Shown here in pieces: positions 13,555-55,867 of a stretch of 64,000 bases of DNA. The DNA comes from Rhodococcus tukisamuensis NBRC 100609 (GTDB lineage: Bacteria > Actinomycetota > Actinomycetes > Mycobacteriales > Mycobacteriaceae). Each line of letters opens with the position of its first letter. Positions within the stretch are counted from its first letter, which is position 1. The notes beneath the pieces were generated by a model. That model was not told the origin of the DNA. It saw only the letters and a list, made by a program, of their open reading frames with translations, and made no database searches. Both the position numbers and the translations under genes were made by a program. Location of the stretch: contig NZ_BCXG01000002.1 in NCBI RefSeq assembly GCF_001894985.1, forward strand, positions 124,001 through 188,000, written 5' to 3'.

Positions 13555-14404
<850 letters not shown>

Positions 14405-26124: not shown

Positions 26125-26550
26125 TCAGCACAGGCAGAACTCGTTGCCCTCCGGGTCCGCCATGGTGATCCACCGGTACGGCCCCTGCTGCCCGCGGTGC
26201 AACTCCGTCGCCCCGGCCGCGACGAGCCGGTCCGCGACGGCCTGCCTGTCGTCGCCGACCCGCAGGTCCAGGTGCATCCGGTTCTTCACCGTCTTCGGTT
26301 CCGGCACCGTCTGGAACAGCACCCGTGGCCGGTCCGGGTGCTCGGGGTCCGAGATCGCGGCCCCGGCCTTCCAGACCAACACCCCCTCGAACAGCGTGGT
26401 GTCCTGCTCGCTGGCCTGGCCGGCGGCGACCAGCCCGCGGATGAAGTCCTCGTCGCTCGGCTCCACCTCCCAGCCGAGTGCCGCGGCCCACCACTTGGCC
26501 AGCGTGTGCGGATCGTTCGAATCGACAGTCACCTGAAATTCGTATCCCAT
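26125..26550 (-). CDS. VOC (glyoxalase-like) protein
   Basis: 141 residues, with two beta-alpha-beta-beta-beta units of the VOC superfamily (FQVTVDSNDPHTLAKWWAAALGW; HLDLRVGDDRQAVADRLVAAGA; WITMADPEGNEFCLC). It resembles the Glyoxalase_6 type common in actinobacteria. Metal ligands are not certain, so the reaction is unknown. Convergent with the AraC gene, 9 bp apart. Confidence 0.82.
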   Translation of the reverse strand: MGYEFQVTVDSNDPHTLAKWWAAALGWEVEPSDEDFIRGLVAAGQASEQDTTLFEGVLVWKAGAAISDPEHPDRPRVLFQTVPEPKTVKNRMHLDLRVGDDRQAVADRLVAAGATELHRGQQGPYRWITMADPEGNEFCLC

Positions 26551-26662
26551 GTCCGGACGGTACAACCGGCCACCGACAGGTTCGGACAGCTCAGCCGCGC
26601 AAGCAGATCCGTCGAACGCCAGACGGATCTCGACCCGAACGGCATCCTGGACCAACGTTCAA

Positions 26663-28159
26663 ATGAGAGGCCGCGTCTTGCGCAAGCTCCTTCTACTGAT
26701 CCCGTTGCTCGCACTGGCCCTGCAGGTCGCGCCGACCGCGACCGCGGCACCGACCGCCGAACCGGCGGCGACAACGGACGGATGGACGCTGCCGCGGCTC
26801 ACGGTCGACGATCGCGCGATCACGGACGTGACGGGCCGGACGGTGCTGCTGCGCGGCGCAAACATCAACCAGCTCAACGACTACGCGCAGAACGACCCCG
26901 CGATCCCGGCCACGGCGCCCCTCGACCGCACCGACTTCACCCGGATGGCAACGCTCGGCTTCAACGTCGTGCGGCTCACCGTCGCGTGGTCCGCCCTCGA
27001 GCCCACCCCGGGCGCCTTCGACCAGGCCTACGTGGCCCGGATCCGCGAGGCCGTCCAGGACGCGAAGGACCACGGCATCTACACCGTGCTGGACATGCAT
27101 CAGGACGCCTGGGGCAAGGCCGTCGGCACCCCCGCCGGCGAGACCTGCCCCGCGCCGATGCGCGCGGGTGTCGGCTGGGACGGCGCCCCCGCCTGGGCCA
27201 CCCTCACGAACGGCTGGACCACCTGCAACATCGCCGGCGTCCGGGAGACCGCACCGGCGGTCGCCGCCGCGTTCCAGAACTTCTACGACGACGTCCAGGG
27301 CATCCAGGGACACCTCGTCGACACCTGGGCGCGACTGGCCGCCGAGTTCAAGGACGAACCCGCGGTCGCCGGCTACGACCTGCTCAACGAGCCCAACCCG
27401 GGCCTGCGCGACCCGGTCACCGCCGCCGATCAGATCGGCCGCTTCTACCAGCGGACCGTCAACGCGATCCGCGGCGCCGAGCAGGGCGGCTTCCCGCATC
27501 TGGTGTTCTTCGAGCCGAGCGCGGTGTGGTCGGCCTTCGGCGTCGACGCCCTGCCGCCGCGCCACTACCTGGCCGACCCACTGGTGGTGTTCTCGCCGCA
27601 CCTCTACGCCGGGTCGATCACCGTCAGCAGCGACCTCCCGTCCCTCGAGGAGGGCTTCGACCTGGCGAAGCGCGCGGCCGCGGTCTACGACGCGCCGCTG
27701 TGGACCGGCGAATGGGCCTGGTTCGGCGAACCCGAGGACGACGCCGACCAGGTCGAGCGGTTCATGGACGCGATGGACGCCCACAGGATGGGCGGCGCCT
27801 GGTGGTCGTGGTCCCAGGCGTGCGGCGATCCGCACGCCGTCCGGGACGGCCACACCGACGAGCCGATGGGCAACCTCAACCGCATCGACTGCCCGTCCGG
27901 CGAACAGTTGGGCCTGGTCGAGGGCTTTGCGAAGCCGCTCTCCCGGGCCTACCCGCGCGCTGCCCCGGGAGCGCTGACCGAGATCACCGCGGCCGGCTTC
28001 ACGGGCATGGGATCCGGACGTCTGGAGGCGTGGTACCCCGGCGCCGACCGGCCGGCCCTGGACACCGCCAACGTCTCGGGCCCGGTCCTGACGCAGGTGG
28101 ACGGCGGCTGGCGTCTGACCGCGGTCACCGACGGCGCCTACTCGGTGACCGCCCGCTGA
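26663..28159 (+). CDS. secreted GH5 endoglycoceramidase-like glycosidase
   Basis: 498 residues. A signal peptide to about residue 29 (ALQVAPTATAA) marks secretion. The GH5 barrel shows acid/base Glu243 in LLNEPNPG and nucleophile Glu350 in LWTGEWAWFG, plus LRGANINQL and LDMHQDAW. A C-terminal beta domain (about 440-498) follows. The arrangement fits rhodococcal endoglycoceramidases (EGCase), which free the glycan from glycosphingolipids. The ATG at 26663 precedes the hydrophobic stretch. Confidence 0.85.
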   Translation: MRGRVLRKLLLLIPLLALALQVAPTATAAPTAEPAATTDGWTLPRLTVDDRAITDVTGRTVLLRGANINQLNDYAQNDPAIPATAPLDRTDFTRMATLGFNVVRLTVAWSALEPTPGAFDQAYVARIREAVQDAKDHGIYTVLDMHQDAWGKAVGTPAGETCPAPMRAGVGWDGAPAWATLTNGWTTCNIAGVRETAPAVAAAFQNFYDDVQGIQGHLVDTWARLAAEFKDEPAVAGYDLLNEPNPGLRDPVTAADQIGRFYQRTVNAIRGAEQGGFPHLVFFEPSAVWSAFGVDALPPRHYLADPLVVFSPHLYAGSITVSSDLPSLEEGFDLAKRAAAVYDAPLWTGEWAWFGEPEDDADQVERFMDAMDAHRMGGAWWSWSQACGDPHAVRDGHTDEPMGNLNRIDCPSGEQLGLVEGFAKPLSRAYPRAAPGALTEITAAGFTGMGSGRLEAWYPGADRPALDTANVSGPVLTQVDGGWRLTAVTDGAYSVTAR

Positions 28160-28205
28160 CCCGACCCATGGGAACATCTGTTCGCATGGGGGTAGGCTCA
28201 CCCTC

Positions 28206-28841
28206 GTGGACATCGCGGTGCAGGCGTCGCTGTTCGACGACCCGACCGGGGGCGCGCGGCTCGGGCCGCTCGACGGCTCGGTGCGCAGGCGCACGTTGAC
28301 GGCCGGCGCCTGGGTGGACGTGCGCCCCGGCTGGATGTCCGGGTCGGATCGGCTGTTCGCCGACCTGGCGGAGCGCACGGTGGCGTGGCGGGCCGAGAGC
28401 CGGCGGATGTACGACCGCGTCGTGGCGGTCCCCCGCCTGGTCGCCTTCTACGACGTCGGCGCCGCGCTGCCGGACCCGCTGCTCGCCGACGCAATGGCGG
28501 CGCTGAGCGGGTACTACCTGCCGGAGCTGGGCGAACCGTTCGTCTCCGCCGGGCTCTGCTACTACCGGGACGGCACCGACAGCGTCGCCTGGCACGGCGA
28601 CACCATCGGCCGCAGCGCCACCGAGGACACCATGGTGGCGATCCTCTCGCTCGGCGCCGCCCGGACCCTCGCGCTGCGGCCGCGCGGTGGCGGCGACTCC
28701 GTGCGGTTCTCGCTCGGCCACGGCGACCTGCTGGTGATGGGCGGGTCCTGCCAGCGCTCCTGGGAGCACGCCGTCCCCAAGAGCTCCCGCCCCACCGGCC
28801 CCCGGGTCAGCGTGCAGTTCCGGACCCGCGGCGTGCGGTGA
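28206..28841 (+). CDS. alkB: AlkB-type 2-oxoglutarate/Fe(II) dioxygenase
   Basis: 211 residues from a GTG start. Iron ligands are His130 and Asp132 (WHGDTIG) and His188 (WEHAVPKS); Arg200 and Arg206 (RVSVQFRTR) bind 2-oxoglutarate. It should repair N-alkylated bases in DNA or RNA by oxidative demethylation. Its last 35 bp overlap the 3' end of the DAHP synthase gene on the other strand. Confidence 0.88.
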   Translation: MDIAVQASLFDDPTGGARLGPLDGSVRRRTLTAGAWVDVRPGWMSGSDRLFADLAERTVAWRAESRRMYDRVVAVPRLVAFYDVGAALPDPLLADAMAALSGYYLPELGEPFVSAGLCYYRDGTDSVAWHGDTIGRSATEDTMVAILSLGAARTLALRPRGGGDSVRFSLGHGDLLVMGGSCQRSWEHAVPKSSRPTGPRVSVQFRTRGVR

Positions 28842-29907
28842 GCACCGCGCCGGCGAGCCGGTCGAGCTGCTCGGCGGTGGTGTCCCAGTCCAGGCACGCG
28901 TCGGTGATGGACTGCCCGTAGGTGAGCTCGTCCGCCTTGCCGAGGGTCAGGTCCTGACGGCCGGCCTCGATGAAGCTCTCCAGCATGATGCCGACGACGC
29001 CCTTCTCACCGCCCGCGATCCGGGCCGCGATGTCGGTCGCCACGTCGACCTGACGCTCGTGGTTCTTCTGGCTGTTGCCGTGGCTGGCGTCGATGACGAC
29101 CCGCTCCGGCAGACCCGACTTCGCAAGGCGTGCAAGGGCGTCCGCGACCGACTCCCGGTCGTAGTTCGGACCGGCGGCGCTGCCGCGCAGGATGACGTGG
29201 CAGTCCGGGTTGCCCGCGGTCCGGATCAGCGCGGACCGGCCGCTGAGGTCGGTTCCGGGGAAGACGTGGCTGGCGCCGGCGGCGCGGGTGCCGTCGACCG
29301 CGACCTGCACGTCGCCCTCGGTGGAGTTCTTGATGCCGACCGGCATGGACAGCGCGCTGCACAGCTGGCGGTGCACCTGGCTGGCCGCCGTGCGGGCGCC
29401 GATCGAGCCGTAGCTCACCAGGTCCGCGATGTACTGCGGGGTGATCGGGTCCAGGAACTCGCAGCCCACCGGCAGGCCCAGCGCGGAGATGTCGAGCAGC
29501 AGTTTGCGTCCCACCCGCAGGCCGGTGTTGACGTCGAAGCTGCCGTCCAGGTGCGGGTCGTTGACCAGACCCTTCCAGCCCAGCGTGGTGCGCGGCTTCT
29601 CGAAGTAGACGCGCATGACCACGTGCAGCGCGTCGCGGTGCTGCTCCGCCTTCTGCGCCAGCCGGCGGGCGTAGTCCAGCGCGGCCTCGGTGTCGTGCAC
29701 CGAGCACGGGCCGACGACGACGAGCAGGCGGTCGTCGCTGCCGTCGAGGATGCCGACAGTCGCGGCGCGGCCGTCGCGCACGGTCTCCGACACCGCGGCG
29801 TCGACCGGGTGCTCGGCACGCACCTCTGACGGCGGCGCCAGGGGGCTGATGGAGATCGTCCGCTGGTCGTCGAGATCGCGGACGTCGGATTCGATGGTGA
29901 TCGTCAT
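28807..29907 (-). CDS. aroG: class I DAHP synthase (first step of aromatic biosynthesis)
   Basis: 366 residues matching AroF/G/H: RRLAQ-like early segment, VVGPCSVHD, VYFEKPRTTLGWKG, GARTAASQVHR, GVKNSTEGD-like VGIKNSTEGDVQVA, VIDASHGNSQKNHE and EGEKGVVGIMLES-like GGEKGVVGIMLESF. It joins phosphoenolpyruvate and erythrose 4-phosphate. The first 25 residues are extra and variable. A leader peptide rich in aromatic codons and stem-loops lie upstream, so expression is probably controlled by attenuation. Confidence 0.92.
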   Translation of the reverse strand: MTITIESDVRDLDDQRTISISPLAPPSEVRAEHPVDAAVSETVRDGRAATVGILDGSDDRLLVVVGPCSVHDTEAALDYARRLAQKAEQHRDALHVVMRVYFEKPRTTLGWKGLVNDPHLDGSFDVNTGLRVGRKLLLDISALGLPVGCEFLDPITPQYIADLVSYGSIGARTAASQVHRQLCSALSMPVGIKNSTEGDVQVAVDGTRAAGASHVFPGTDLSGRSALIRTAGNPDCHVILRGSAAGPNYDRESVADALARLAKSGLPERVVIDASHGNSQKNHERQVDVATDIAARIAGGEKGVVGIMLESFIEAGRQDLTLGKADELTYGQSITDACLDWDTTAEQLDRLAGAVLTARRGSGTAR

Positions 29908-29960
29908 GTGAGTGTCCTGTTCGGTGAGGACCGACCCACTGAGGATGCGTGCACACTCGC

Positions 29961-30020
29961 GAGCCGGTGAGGTCCGGCTCGGGGTGGAAGAAGTCAGCGC
30001 AGGTCTACGCTGACCGGCCC
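29961..30020 (-). promoter_or_regulatory. attenuator-like stem-loops between leader peptide and aroG
   Basis: On the minus transcript three helices are possible. GTCAGCG with CGCTGAC (29993-30014) spans the leader stop codon. GAGCCGG with CCGGCTC (29961-29980) is downstream. GGGCCGGT (30013-30020) can pair instead with ACCGGCTC (29961-29968), which would break the other two. Such mutually exclusive pairing is the mark of translation-coupled attenuation. No U-run follows, so it may act through Rho or on translation. Confidence 0.55.
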
Positions 30021-30062
30021 ACCCGGGGCCGGCCTGCTAAACCAGAAATATGCGCGCTGCAT
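29994..30062 (-). CDS. aromatic-rich leader peptide of aroG (22 aa)
   Basis: ATG at 30062, stop at 29994, 86 bp before aroG on the same strand. It reads MQRAYFWFSRPAPGG and so on, with the run Tyr-Phe-Trp-Phe at residues 5-8: all three aromatic end-products in four consecutive codons. A TACAGT -10 type hexamer ends 7 bases before the ATG, so the transcript may be leaderless. The layout fits ribosome-mediated attenuation of DAHP synthase by aromatic amino acid supply. It is far too short for homology-based calling. Confidence 0.75.
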   Translation of the reverse strand: MQRAYFWFSRPAPGGPVSVDLR

Positions 30063-30315
30063 GGCCGCCACTGTAGCAGCGCCCCCGGACCGCACTGTGA
30101 ACGGTCACCGTAGTTGGCCATTCGTAGCGAGTCGCCCGGTCCCATTCCGCCGATAGTCCGCTTCCTAGATAACCTGTATCATCTGGCAAAATCCTAGCGG
30201 TCCCCGACCGCCCAGAGGCGGCCCGTGGGATTCGGGAGAAACTGCGCGATCAGCGCACCGAGCGCAGCGTCCGGAGCGACCTGATCCGGGTCGGTTCGAA
30301 GCCCTTCTTGTTCCC
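30063..30315 (-). other. promoter region of the aro leader; nothing else seen
   Basis: About 250 bp. The first part upstream of the leader ATG carries the likely promoter. The rest, up to the PAP2 remnant, is AT-richer around 30160-30195 (cctagataacctgtatcatc) and has no open frame I can support. Confidence 0.4.
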
Positions 30316-30618
30316 ATGCCGGAGTCCGCGTCCTTCCCATCCGGTCACGCCGCCTCGGCTTTTGCGTTCGCCTATACGGTGGGCCGACACTACCCGGCGT
30401 TGGCAGTGCCGATCCGGTTGCTCGCCAGTGGGGTGGCCTATTCGAGAGTGCACACCGTTGTGCACTACCCCGGTGACGTGGTGCTCGGCTCCGTCCTCGG
30501 AGCCGGAACGTCGGCCATGGTGGCGGGCGCACGCGACCGTAGGAATCGGCCGCCAGGGCGGGAGGAAGGCGTCGTATCCGGCCGACTACTCGGGCTCCTC
30601 CTGGCGGACGACCGGTGA
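30316..30618 (+). pseudogene. N-terminally truncated PAP2 phosphatase
   Basis: 100 codons starting directly at the second PAP2 motif: FPSGHAASAFAFAYTVGRHYP, then the third motif SRVHTVVHYPGDVVLGS. The first motif (KxxxxxxRP) and the membrane part before it are missing. A KPFL stretch just upstream is in a different frame, which suggests a frameshift plus deletion. The convergent neighbour is a diacylglycerol-kinase-type lipid kinase, and these two domains are often fused in one actinobacterial protein, so this may be a broken and rearranged fusion. Likely non-functional. Confidence 0.7.
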
Positions 30619-31581
30619 AGCGCTCCTCGGTGACCTTGGAGGTCGGAGGCGGGCGGAGGGCGAGGCGCCAGGATGTCGGGACGAGATGCGCACGCGAAGG
30701 ACTACCGGGCGAATGGCGAACCTGAGCGGTGGACTCAGCACCACTGATTCACCGTCGATACCCGCGTGCACGGGCGCGGGGGCGAAGACCTCAAAGTCCG
30801 TTGCGCTCCAGGCGCGCCCTGGAGGATGCCGCCCACTGTCCGGTGCGTCGAGAATGACGATGCCCAGAAGGCCGTCACCAAGCGAGCGGCGACTGCCGAG
30901 GGCAAGAGGGTCCAACGCGTAGGGGTTGTTCGATACCAGCACAACGGCGAGTTGAGCGTGCTGGCGCCCTACGTCGTCGACGAGGCGCAGCGCCGGAGTC
31001 CTTGCACCGGGGCCGACGACCCGATCGGCAGTCTCCACGAGGATGCGCACCTTGGCGTCGCGATAGGCCGGATGGCGGACCGCCTCACCGTAGATCCCGA
31101 GAGAGACGTTGTTCACAAATGCGCGGCCGTTCACTTCTGCCAGGTCGATCCGCCGCTCTACCCCATCGGTGAACGCGTCGAGCGCGCCCGCCACGTCCTG
31201 CCGGTCCACTCCGAGGTCGAGCGCGAAGTGGTTTCGTGTCCCGGCCGGGACGCAGATGAACGGCACCCCCTGCGCGGCTGCGGCGGCTGCCACGACCGCC
31301 AGGGACCCGTCGCCACCAGCCATCCCCAGCGCATCCGCGCCCTGCTTCACCGCCTCGTCGACGCACTCCATGAGGCTCTGGCCCGGATCGAGGACGACCA
31401 CCTCGATCCCGCGATCCCGTGCCCGTTCAGCAACCCTTGCCCTGCCCGCCGCACCATCTCCCGATCTTGGGTTGACAAACAACACCGGCCGTAGCGGCGG
31501 GTCGGCTGCACACCAGCCACAGCGGGTCAATCTCTGCTGGGACGGACCACTACCCGGCCGGGGAACCGGGGGCATGATCAT
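30586..31581 (-). CDS. diacylglycerol kinase-type lipid kinase
   Basis: 331 residues from the ATG at 31581 (MIMPPVP); an ATG 36 codons earlier (31689) is possible but the added part looks random. The DAGK catalytic domain is clear: PVLFVNPRSGDGAAG, GGDGSLAVVAAAAAA and PAGTRNHFALDLG, with NNVSLGIYG later. It should phosphorylate a lipid such as diacylglycerol, sphingosine or undecaprenol-like substrates. The last 40 residues are Arg/Pro/Ser-rich and overlap the PAP2 remnant, so the true end may have been replaced. Confidence 0.8.
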   Translation of the reverse strand: MIMPPVPRPGSGPSQQRLTRCGWCAADPPLRPVLFVNPRSGDGAAGRARVAERARDRGIEVVVLDPGQSLMECVDEAVKQGADALGMAGGDGSLAVVAAAAAAQGVPFICVPAGTRNHFALDLGVDRQDVAGALDAFTDGVERRIDLAEVNGRAFVNNVSLGIYGEAVRHPAYRDAKVRILVETADRVVGPGARTPALRLVDDVGRQHAQLAVVLVSNNPYALDPLALGSRRSLGDGLLGIVILDAPDSGRHPPGRAWSATDFEVFAPAPVHAGIDGESVVLSPPLRFAIRPVVLRVRISSRHPGASPSARLRPPRSPRSASPVVRQEEPE

Positions 31582-31997
31582 GATGCCGTTCCCCGAGAGC
31601 CACCAGCTACCGATGCCAGCCCCATGTCGCCCTCGTGGAGCCCGCCGCCGGTCGGATCCCGCGAAGGACCGTTGACCGCTCGTCGGCATCGGACTGGCAC
31701 GTCGAGCCCCCTAGGCGGTTTGCTGACCGTGACCTACCTATCTACCTACCTACCTTACGTCTCGATTCCACGGTGATCGATGCCGCCGAAAACCGAGGCT
31801 CGTGCAACAGCCCGACTGCAGGGTCACGGTCGGGGCCGACCTCTGCCAGCAGTCCGGCGGTGCGAAGGCCGCGTACGCGTCCCATTGGATGTGTCTCGAA
31901 ACCAGTTCACGTCGAAGAGTTTTGGGACACCCGAGCTCGTGAGCGCATTACTGGGCTCCAATGGGGGTTCGTACGCTGACGAGGGCGTCGTTCCCAC
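31582..31997. other. non-coding stretch with a (CTAC)n microsatellite
   Basis: About 415 bp upstream of the lipid kinase gene. The only feature seen is a short tetranucleotide run at 31732-31757 (cctacctatctacctaccta). Open frames here have no codon bias and I support none of them. Confidence 0.5.
31732..31757. repeat. imperfect CTAC/CTAT tetranucleotide run
   Basis: About six imperfect units of cta(c/t)c. Short simple repeats are rare in such GC-rich genomes, and this one lies in the decayed accessory region. Confidence 0.7.
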
Positions 31998-32174
31998 ATG
32001 GAGCCGTTCAGGGCGACTGAGCGCATGAAGGGCCAGCTGGACCAGATCGATGCACCAGCAAAGTTGCATGGCCAATCTTCTCCGGCACTCGGGCGACATG
32101 ATTTGGCCAACGAACGGTTGCGAACAATTGCCAACTTCGATGACGACGATCGCGCGCTGCCGTCGTCACGCTAG
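31998..32174 (+). CDS. 58-aa open frame ending in repeat copy A (possibly a decayed gene)
   Basis: MEPFRATERMKGQLDQIDAP starts a 58-residue frame that ends LANERLRTIANFDDDDRALPSSR. The same C-terminal sequence, LTNEQQRTIANLDDEDRA, occurs in repeat copy B at about 33280-33350, so it is a conserved peptide end rather than noise. The stop codon TAG is the first base triplet of the 43-bp repeat element. It may be a tiny gene or the tail of a lost larger one. Confidence 0.4.
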   Translation: MEPFRATERMKGQLDQIDAPAKLHGQSSPALGRHDLANERLRTIANFDDDDRALPSSR

Positions 32175-32230
32175 TTGTCACACCGCAGGTCAGAGCGCCG
32201 GGAAATGCCAACTACGGTGACGATTCACAG
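32093..32230 (+). repeat. repeat copy A (138 bp; includes 43-bp inverted-repeat element 32172-32214)
   Basis: About 85% identical by eye to copy B at 33266-33406. Its core is the 43-bp element with arms TAGTTGTCA and TGCCAACTA. The left arm begins with the stop codon of one frame and the right arm holds an ATG of the next (MPTTVTIH). Beyond 32235 copies A and B diverge completely. Confidence 0.75.
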
Positions 32231-32311
32231 CTGCCATGCCGGTGTCCCACAGCAGCTGGATCCGCTGGCCGGATCTGATGCGAGACGCCGGGTCCGACTC
32301 GCTCGGACCTG

Positions 32312-33265: not shown

Positions 33266-33406
33266 GCGACAACATGGTTTGACCAACGAACAGCAGCGAA
33301 CAATTGCCAACTTGGATGACGAAGATCGCGCCGTGTCGTCGTCAACCTAGTTGTCACACCGCAGGTCAGAGTGCCGGGATATGACAACTACGATGACGAT
33401 TCACAC
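33266..33406 (+). repeat. repeat copy B (141 bp; includes 43-bp inverted-repeat element 33348-33390)
   Basis: Second copy of the sequence at 32093-32230. The 43-bp core has perfect 9-bp arms TAGTTGTCA (33348-33356) and TGACAACTA (33382-33390). The left arm carries the stop codon of a frame ending EDRAVSSST; the right arm begins with the ATG of the pentapeptide-repeat frame. Weaker similarity extends left to about 33177. Confidence 0.75.
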
Positions 33407-33821
33407 CGGCGGACGGGCCGCACTCCGTCCAGCGCTCCCACCACACCTGGACCGAGCCCGATTTCCCACGGGCGGTAGCGGGCCGAAAGTCCCTACGGCT
33501 GACGCCCAACCCGCAACAATCACAGAGACCGGGCCCCAGGAACTGGAAGTCCGCGCTGCGATCATCACTGTCATCCGGAGCCGCACAAGGAAGACAGCGA
33601 GCCTTGAAAGGCGCTGGCCAGATGGTGCGCTCGTTCTCTATACGGCGGACCTGCGTGACGTGTGCCTGGTCGGCGCGGACCTGCGCGGCGCGGACCTGTC
33701 CGGCGCGAACCTGGTCGAGGTTTCTGGGGGTCGCTTGCGCGCGGCGCCCGCGGTTGTCCGGCTTGATCGACAACCAGGGTGGCCGATGGGGTGCCGGTGT
33801 GGTCCACGCGCACATTGGTGA
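33381..33821 (+). CDS. truncated pentapeptide-repeat protein
   Basis: 146 codons. It starts inside the repeat element (MTTTMTIHTGG). Residues about 96-113 are pentapeptide repeats (ADLRDVCLVGADLRGADLSG), after which the sequence changes abruptly to Arg-rich shadow of an Hsp70-like scrap on the other strand. Pentapeptide-repeat proteins form a right-handed beta-helix of many coils; only about five repeats remain, so this is probably a broken gene rather than a working one. Confidence 0.45.
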   Translation: MTTTMTIHTGGRAALRPALPPHLDRARFPTGGSGPKVPTADAQPATITETGPQELEVRAAIITVIRSRTRKTASLERRWPDGALVLYTADLRDVCLVGADLRGADLSGANLVEVSGGRLRAAPAVVRLDRQPGWPMGCRCGPRAHW

Positions 33822-54913: not shown

Positions 54914-55867
54914 ATGGCCAGAGATTTGACCCAGCTCGAGCTGCTCACGGAGCTGCAGCCCGAAGCCGAAGCCAATCTCAACCGACACCTGTCCATGGCG
55001 AAGGACTGGCACCCCCACGACTATGTCCCGTGGGACGAGGGCCGGAACTTCGCCTTCCTGGGTGGTGACGACTGGGATCCGGAGCAGTCCCGCCTGGACG
55101 AGGTCGCCAAGGCCGCGATGATCACCAACCTCCTCACCGAGGACAACCTGCCCTCGTACCACCGCGAGATCGCCGAGAACTTCTCCCGGGACGGCGCCTG
55201 GGGCACCTGGGTGGGCCGCTGGACCGCCGAGGAGAACCGCCACGGAATCGTGATGCGTGACTACCTCGTCGTGACGCGCAGCGTGGACCCGGTCGCCCTC
55301 GAAGAGGCCCGGATGATCCACATGACCAACGGCTACTCCTCCCCCGGCGACACCGAGGGCCTGCTGCACTCGGTCGCGTACGTGACCTTCCAGGAGCTGG
55401 CCACCCGCGTCTCGCACCGCAACACCGGCCGGGCCTGCAACGACGACATCGCCGACAAGATGCTCGCCCGCATCGCCGCCGACGAGAACCTGCACATGAT
55501 CTTCTACCGCAACATCTGCGGCGCAGCCCTCGACGTCTCCCCCGACCAGGCGATGGCCGCCATCACCGACGTCGTCACGCACTTCGAGATGCCCGGCGCA
55601 GGCATGCCCAACTTCCGCCGCAACGGCGTCCTGATGGCGAAGCACGGCATCTACGACCTCCGCCAGCACCTCGACGAGGTGGTCATGCCGGTCCTGCGCA
55701 AGTGGCAGATCTTCGAGCGCAACGACTTCTCCGACGCCGGTGAGCGCGCCCGCGACACGCTGGCCGCGTTCCTCGAGACGCTCGGATCGAACGCCACCAA
55801 GTTCGAGGAGCAGCGCGACCGGATGCTCGCCCGCGAGGCCGCCAAGCGCGAACAGCAGGCCTCCTGA
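54914..55867 (+). CDS. desA1: acyl-ACP desaturase (DesA1 type)
   Basis: 317 residues. Diiron ligands in EENRHG and DENLHM, with ITNLLTEDNLPSYHREIA and THFEMPGAGMPNFRR. The M. tuberculosis DesA1 sequence I remember has the same blocks, including LNRHLSMAKDWHPHDYVPW-like text. It introduces a double bond in acyl chains used for mycolic acids. GGAGG lies 9 bases before the ATG. Confidence 0.9.
   Translation: MARDLTQLELLTELQPEAEANLNRHLSMAKDWHPHDYVPWDEGRNFAFLGGDDWDPEQSRLDEVAKAAMITNLLTEDNLPSYHREIAENFSRDGAWGTWVGRWTAEENRHGIVMRDYLVVTRSVDPVALEEARMIHMTNGYSSPGDTEGLLHSVAYVTFQELATRVSHRNTGRACNDDIADKMLARIAADENLHMIFYRNICGAALDVSPDQAMAAITDVVTHFEMPGAGMPNFRRNGVLMAKHGIYDLRQHLDEVVMPVLRKWQIFERNDFSDAGERARDTLAAFLETLGSNATKFEEQRDRMLAREAAKREQQAS

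Follow-up and report, generated by a model that had tools for sequence, protein, structure and literature searches.

In the 64,000-nucleotide window of the Rhodococcus tukisamuensis genome analysed here, aroG is preceded by a 22-codon frame in which Tyr, Phe and Trp codons stand side by side, and a leader of this kind is found before the same gene at nearly all sampled loci of the family. Judging from sequence comparison, the frame, its three aromatic residues, the leaderless −10 geometry and a core of the RNA are under strong selection and go with aroG. We consider it likely that an aroR-type, leaderless, ribosome-read leader controls this gene.

The leader frame upstream of aroG and its conservation

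The initial annotation had described a 22-codon frame 86 bp before aroG with the run YFWF at codons 5–8, and the following coordinates, all on the minus strand, confirm it.

28807–29907, minus strand: aroG, class I DAHP synthase, 366 aa (NCBIfam TIGR00034, E 1.3e-141; NF009395, E 2.6e-143)
29994–30062, minus strand: leader peptide frame MQRAYFWFSRPAPGGPVSVDLR, 22 codons from the ATG at 30062 to a stop TGA that ends at 29994 (sequence)
30039–30050, minus strand: control codons TAT TTC TGG TTT, Tyr-Phe-Trp-Phe, codons 5–8 (sequence)
30070–30075, minus strand: −10 promoter hexamer TACAGT, 7 nt before the ATG, leaderless geometry (sequence)

The product of aroG, DAHP synthase, is the first enzyme of aromatic amino acid synthesis. 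Its gene, 86 nt beyond the leader stop, is the only class I DAHP synthase match in the genome, a class II enzyme being encoded elsewhere, and the named genomes closest by AroG protein belong to Rhodococcus. The leaderless start that had been suggested for the frame agrees with the geometry, in which TACAGT (30075–30070) is followed after 7 nt by the ATG, and the leader transcript is probably leaderless. A −10 element of the form TAnnnT is known from Streptomyces (PMC8079986, in excerpt).

Short frames are frequent in this region, where 15 frames of at least 20 aa in the ORF list overlap 29700–30200, and a frame could arise by chance in such GC-rich upstream DNA. Conservation refutes this explanation, whose probability we regard as negligible. 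Upstream regions of class I DAHP synthase genes were taken from 151 sampled genomes of the family, of which 24 were dropped for having no match to the enzyme; the 127 with the gene gave 128 loci. Presence of the aromatic frame in relatives, used here as a refutation test of the original proposal, leaves that proposal standing: Tyr, Phe and Trp lie within 7 codons of a short leaderless frame in 126 of the 128 loci, spread over 26 genera. Under a stricter rule (a short ATG or GTG frame with Y, W and F inside a 5-codon span) 123 of 128 loci pass, every one of them with a TANNNT box at leaderless spacing. The same 5-codon rule is passed by 0/128 loci on the antisense strand and by 1.2% of dinucleotide shuffles for the frame alone, or 0.16% for the frame with its −10 box. 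The leader is not universal among class I DAHP synthase genes, being absent by the 5-codon rule from all 16 loci of f18, another family of the class.

The two exceptions among the 128 are L127, which has Trp-Arg-Phe with no nearby Tyr, and L051, a second copy in one genome. A set of 80 named loci (Rhodococcus, Nocardia, Amycolatopsis, Pseudonocardia and others), drawn partly from the same genomes as the 128, gives a similar picture, with all three residues in 78, one locus without Tyr, and one, L178, without such a frame. L178 is the L051 copy, which the named locus assigns to Antrihabitans cavernicola; this second class I DAHP synthase copy has no aromatic leader, and the other copy in that genome, L046, has one. 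Of 208 loci, 199 could be anchored and 9 were left out; 198 of the anchored ones have a TANNNT box 6–8 nt ahead of an in-frame start, the spacing being 7 nt in 161, 6 nt in 20 and 8 nt in 17. The 199th, L031, was misanchored and is excluded from the codon counts below; its leader reads MQCAYFWF and is included in the 126.

The leaders fall into two groups. Group A (Rhodococcus, Nocardia, Prescottella, Amycolatopsis, Pseudonocardia and others; enzyme mostly 64–100% identical) reads about YFWF(S/T)xPAxGG...R-stop, and group B (enzyme 52–62% identical) about AYWRF(I/T)EAPGGA. The aromatic run is reordered between leaders (YFWF, YWRF, YYWRF, YRWRF, YWF), with Tyr, Phe and Trp remaining together, and codon-sized insertions or deletions within it preserve the frame in L045, L048 and L091 among the loci listed. 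The Tyr codon of group A leaders lies at a variable distance from a conserved GCTGA, but one divisible by three in 138 of 139 loci; the one odd distance, 62 nt, fits L042, whose peptide stops at an earlier in-frame TGA. The last Phe codon of group A is almost invariably TTT.

A covariance model of the group A core, with the best 50 candidates per genome scored, has one match in this genome, at aroG, and matches 22 of 81 genomes. Two weak matches to the group A leader model were also seen: a second one in genome G035 (L300, E 2.5e-4) and one in genome G033 (L298, E 6.7e-5), in which no class I DAHP synthase gene was detected; the latter possibly lies at another gene or arose by chance. No leaderless frame appeared before trpE, the second PF04715 gene, pheA or the class II DAHP synthase gene of this genome in a search that ran from some 650 nt upstream up to where the family match begins, a weak negative because such a match can begin inside the gene.

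Several other features of the window were recorded in their own right. On the plus strand, a 536-aa protein (26549–28159) has a partial match to endoglycoceramidase I at 109 bits against a curated cut-off of 700. A 100-aa plus-strand frame (30316–30618), which matches only profile positions 115–183 of 188 of an undecaprenyl-diphosphatase model and lies opposite and overlapping a lipid-kinase-like frame (30586–31689, minus strand), may be a PAP2 remnant. Further away are a direct repeat (32096–32234 and 33272–33410; 139 nt, 87% identical, 1176 nt apart), a c-di-AMP riboswitch (13580–13763, plus strand; RF00379, 54.4 bits) and a match to ASdes ("ASdes TB sRNA"; 55232–55299, minus strand; RF01781, 69.5 bits), which we guess is possibly just conserved desaturase coding sequence.

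Leader RNA folding and the proposed output of control

For the leader RNA in the window, the predicted folding energy is −76.3 kcal/mol (z −3.88). The elements of this RNA are as follows.

30026–30032, minus strand: arm 1, CCGGCCC, in the codons Pro-Ala-Pro (sequence; RNAalifold consensus)
30014–30020, minus strand: arm 2, GGGCCGG, pairing with arm 1 around the loop CGGGT (sequence; RNAalifold consensus)
30019–30024, minus strand: GGGTGG, which can pair with CCACCC and then excludes arm 1/arm 2 (minimum-energy fold; swap test)
29982–29987, minus strand: CCACCC, partner of GGGTGG at 30024–30019 (minimum-energy fold; swap test)
29974–29980, minus strand: segment 3, GAGCCGG, 5′ arm of the downstream hairpin (sequence; RNAalifold; nearly invariant, with little evidence of covariation)
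29961–29967, minus strand: segment 4, CCGGCTC, 3′ arm of the downstream hairpin, with no U-tract after it (sequence; RNAalifold)
29908–29940, minus strand: hairpin over the aroG Shine-Dalgarno site, GTCCT (29931–29927) with AGGAC (29918–29914) (minimum-energy fold)

Alignments began with 140 group A and 59 group B loci, which removal of near-duplicates (after exclusion of L031 and L207) reduced to 95 and 50, and 89 and 44 of these were aligned. The group A rows left out are L042, L084, L120, L167, L190 and L197, so that both relatives with a T-run described below, L042 and L120, are absent from the group A alignment. In the RNAalifold consensus of the 89 group A sequences, only 1 of 21 pairs shows a two-sided change; the conservation of this RNA is therefore mostly invariance, not covariation. 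The inner four pairs of arm 1/arm 2 (alignment columns 25–28 with 34–37) belong to this consensus.

The initial annotation had proposed mutually exclusive hairpins at 29961–30020. This holds for arm 1/arm 2 and GGGTGG/CCACCC, which exclude each other, but not for GAGCCGG/CCGGCTC, which coexists with GGGTGG/CCACCC in the minimum-energy fold and keeps a mean probability of at least 0.87 in every simulated state across 117 relatives. In a swap test of GGGTGG/CCACCC over 91 distinct relatives, the native partners pair more strongly than exchanged ones in 65 (p 0.002, a value that ignores phylogeny); of the 13 sequences whose loop is unusual, only 8 behave this way. Compensating changes occur in L195, L204 and L208. 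Segment 4 might also pair with the stretch that precedes the Shine-Dalgarno site, and the match is perfect in some lineages; over all sequences the signal is weak (2.45 vs 2.32 pairs of 5, with 69/2000 permutations as good), and we do not propose this pairing.

So conserved and stable an RNA might be a riboswitch or a protein-binding site in which the frame is incidental. However, a scan of the whole window places no Rfam family at its gathering score at the leader, and at E up to 5 the matches near it (28000–31000) score far below gathering. The codon-sized indels, the conserved start and stop and the leaderless −10 geometry indicate a translated frame, and we judge the riboswitch or protein-site explanation very improbable.

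The residues that follow the aromatic run (PAPGG..., EAPGGA...) are conserved even between distant leaders, as might be expected of a nascent arrest peptide that responds to a free aromatic amino acid inside the ribosome tunnel. TnaC is the model for an arrest peptide of this type. Third codon positions are conserved here too, the loop Gly codon being GGT in 116 of the 130 group A loci examined, and the arm 1/arm 2 hairpin, formed by the codons after the aromatic run, can explain the conservation of PAPGG at the RNA level. Moreover, APGG is kept by 0 of 13 Corynebacterium leaders (APG by 5), in which the aromatic run stays. Tunnel sensing consequently appears improbable to us.

A terminator with a U-tract, as in a trp-type attenuator, is not found in this genome: no U-tract follows the hairpin at 29980–29961, and the terminator scan of 29800–30320 found no terminator-like site, just as the accompanying sigma-70 scan of this interval returned nothing. 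A Shine-Dalgarno site held in a hairpin by default, as in a translation attenuator, is what the predicted folds of group A contain. Because the hairpin lacks a U-tract and the Shine-Dalgarno site is folded, translational control is here as likely as termination. Across 81 group A relatives, the site has a mean paired probability of 0.62, compared with 0.52 after shuffling of the upstream part (p 9e-6); the native halves pair better than swapped ones in 52 of 81 (p 2e-5), neither value being corrected for ancestry. In group B, native halves also do better, in 32 of 46 (p 0.003, likewise uncorrected for ancestry), and the site is not significantly more paired than in shuffled sequences (46 sequences; 0.53 vs 0.50, p 0.34). 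Within group A, the GAGCCGG/CCGGCTC hairpin of L042 is followed by a seven-T run, and in L120 another GC-rich hairpin occupies this place and carries a six-T run. These two differ from the other group A sequences listed, and the output may have switched more than once.

The terminator hairpin of group B has 5 pairs with two-sided changes. Automatic calls give it a T-rich tail in 35 of 57 cases; in several others a larger hairpin was chosen that swallows the T-run. The 48 distinct sequences compared, from group B, other families and Corynebacterium, show covariation in helix 1:3 of this group (GGCTCCGGGT with ACCCGGAGCC): 2.42 of 3 pairs form, against 1.99 when permuted, and 0/5000 permutations are as high. 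A pairing of segments 3 and 6 finds no support in group B (59 loci, 13 of them dropped because the pattern is missing).

Competing folds had also been predicted for this region. Overlapping helices are indeed present; equilibrium folding of the RNA beyond a ribosome placed at each aromatic codon or at the stop gave no clear switch between them. With the ribosome so masked in 117 relatives, the downstream hairpin stays (0.99 at the stop, 0.90–0.99 at the aromatic codons) and the mean accessibility of the Shine-Dalgarno site is 0.50 at the stop and 0.55, 0.54, 0.49 and 0.48 at the four codons. In this genome, stalls at the four successive codons (Tyr, Phe, Trp, Phe) give accessibilities of 0.33, 0.34, 0.15 and 0.08, and the stop gives 0.07; a stall at the second Phe would accordingly do nothing in this calculation. 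In group B, a stall at Tyr or Trp favors helix 1:3 (0.91 and 0.96 vs 0.64 without a ribosome), and the masked folding produces no terminator switch.

Proposed sensing of three aromatic amino acids

In the mechanism that we propose, transcription would start at the leader ATG and the ribosome would load at the 5′ end of the transcript. A shortage of Tyr, Phe or Trp, leaving the cognate tRNA uncharged, would stall the ribosome on the adjacent codons 5–8, next to arm 1, and the stalled ribosome would decide which of the overlapping downstream helices form, raising aroG expression. Any one of the three shortages would act, so that the leader would work as an OR gate. Where relatives possess a typical terminator, transcription termination would presumably be the output; in this genome, the output would probably be mixed or translational, via the hairpin over the aroG Shine-Dalgarno site. 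The ribosome very probably gauges the supply of aromatic amino acids through this leader and sets aroG expression. The original idea of ribosome-mediated attenuation that senses all the aromatics is partly supported, by the conserved three-residue leader, its leaderless geometry and its stable RNA. Attenuation through a terminator stays putative for this genome, in which no U-tract follows the hairpin, the Shine-Dalgarno site can be sequestered and equilibrium folding gave no clear switch.

The leader may instead regulate aroG while a single amino acid, most likely Phe, counts, the Tyr and Trp codons being tuning or ancestral. Two Phe codons are present here, the last of them the TTT that is nearly invariant in group A; Trp is missing from 8 of 14 Corynebacterium leaders and from 12 of the 17 leaders found in family f21; and C. 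glutamicum aroF rises on Phe limitation and not on Tyr limitation (PMC11802643, as excerpted). On the other hand, all three residues are kept in 126 of 128 loci and 26 genera, though Trp has a single codon, and changes of order and spacing leave the set of three intact, as selection on each of them would predict. Sensing of a single amino acid seems to us rather unlikely, and we favor a leader in which Tyr, Phe and Trp would each be sensed.

The choice of synonyms within the run is also distinctive. Leaders from 198 loci, some of which share a genome, use TAT 184 times and TAC 12 times for Tyr, and TTT 207 times and TTC 112 times for Phe. The corresponding counts are TAT 1/TAC 204 and TTT 1/TTC 143 in 30 aroG genes, and TAT 16/TAC 283 and TTT 7/TTC 413 in 37 ORFs of the window. 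The aromatic codons of the leaders lean to synonyms that genes avoid; the rare TAT and TTT may slow decoding and sharpen the sensor, or may serve RNA pairing.

We tentatively extend this reading to a wider picture, which we hold to be possible rather than probable in its entirety: one leaderless peptide would act as an OR gate on three tRNA chargings at the entry enzyme of the pathway, would be ancestral over much of the Actinomycetes and would be sharpened by rare codons; C. glutamicum aroR would be a reduced descendant without Trp, and in Rhodococcus, Nocardia and their relatives the output would have shifted from termination towards translation.

Relation to Corynebacterium aroR and other leaders

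The AroR leader peptide and the aroF attenuator of C. glutamicum are reportedly the subject of Neshat et al. 2014 (J Biotechnol 190:55). Excerpts of later papers describe a Phe-Tyr-Phe leader, aroR, before aroF that is reported to attenuate this gene, whose expression goes up on Phe limitation and is unaffected by Tyr (PMC11802643, PMC4046766). The likeness to the present case lies in a short aromatic leader before a DAHP synthase gene; the differences are that the run here is Tyr-Phe-Trp-Phe and that, in these excerpts, Phe acts there and Tyr does not. C. glutamicum aroR is a precedent for the leader that had been called unusual, and the leaders of its relatives resemble the family described here. 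The Rhodococcus frame stands just before a class I DAHP synthase gene, carries a run of aromatic codons and, by sequence, has the geometry of a leaderless transcript; an intrinsic terminator, present in many group B relatives and in the locus L238, is missing here.

L238, from a close relative of C. glutamicum, was located by a primer sequence (PMC7356990, in excerpt). Its aroF start differs from that primer, so it is not C. glutamicum ATCC 13032 itself. Its leader, MFAARFYFMSGSGAFPRQLAVSRAT, has a −10 box at a leaderless spacing of 8 nt, a kind of spacing shared with the Rhodococcus leader, and its RNA has the group B core GGCTCCGG...CCGGAG, whereas the hairpin and T-run that follow form a clear terminator that contrasts with the hairpin without a U-tract in this genome. 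An aromatic leader at leaderless spacing is found at 13 of 15 further Corynebacterium loci, with Trp present in 6 of the 13. Beyond the family, the class yielded 43 matching loci, of which 42 were considered (all but G264). An aromatic leader stands at 23 of the 42; Tyr, Phe and Trp are all present in 11 of these leaders, and the other 12, all in f21, lack Trp. At the 16 f18 loci this survey likewise found no such leader. Most simply read, the full set of three residues would be ancestral and Trp would have been lost in several lines. The known C. glutamicum aroR looks like a reduced form of a wider leader family.

Leaders that respond to several amino acids at once are familiar from the thr and ilv operons of E. 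coli. The pheL and trpL leaders of that organism are proteobacterial, sense one amino acid each and use U-tract terminators. They resemble the present leader in their ribosome-read aromatic control codons and alternative hairpins (PMC11802643, as excerpted) and differ from it in reading one amino acid each, as opposed to the Tyr, Phe and Trp codons found here. Actinobacteria have trp, ilvB, cys and leuA leaders (Seliverstov et al. 2005, PMC1262725), which in the excerpted text also have runs of regulatory codons, some with no obvious terminator, and several leaders of S. lividans are leaderless (PMC8079986, in excerpt); these actinobacterial leaders differ in their Trp, branched-chain, Cys or other codons. 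The same excerpt of Seliverstov et al. (PMC1262725) states that no conserved structures were found for other amino acid pathways, and a C. diphtheriae transcriptome lists only trp, ilvB and leu leaders in its excerpted part (PMC5784534). The poly-cysteine leaderless short ORFs of mycobacteria, described in excerpt as acting by translation attenuation of cysteine genes (PMC13236596, citing Canestrari et al. 2020), likewise are leaderless short frames, with cysteine codons and other genes; the likeness is by description alone. In the excerpts of open-licence literature consulted, the Corynebacterium leader is the only one found reported before a DAHP synthase gene.

The leader described here appears ordinary in kind and new in extent: it is of aroR type, covers three aromatics and occurs in many genera. 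This widespread element is absent from the excerpted text of the 2005 survey of Actinobacteria (PMC1262725). The preference for rare codons is a testable tuning device, and the family-wide frame could be of use in engineering aromatic production in Rhodococcus, Amycolatopsis and Corynebacterium. To our knowledge, each leader attenuator known for aromatic synthesis reads a single amino acid or, in C. glutamicum, carries Phe and Tyr codons. If all three amino acids are read at the entry enzyme, the leader would be a compact sensor of the whole set of end products.
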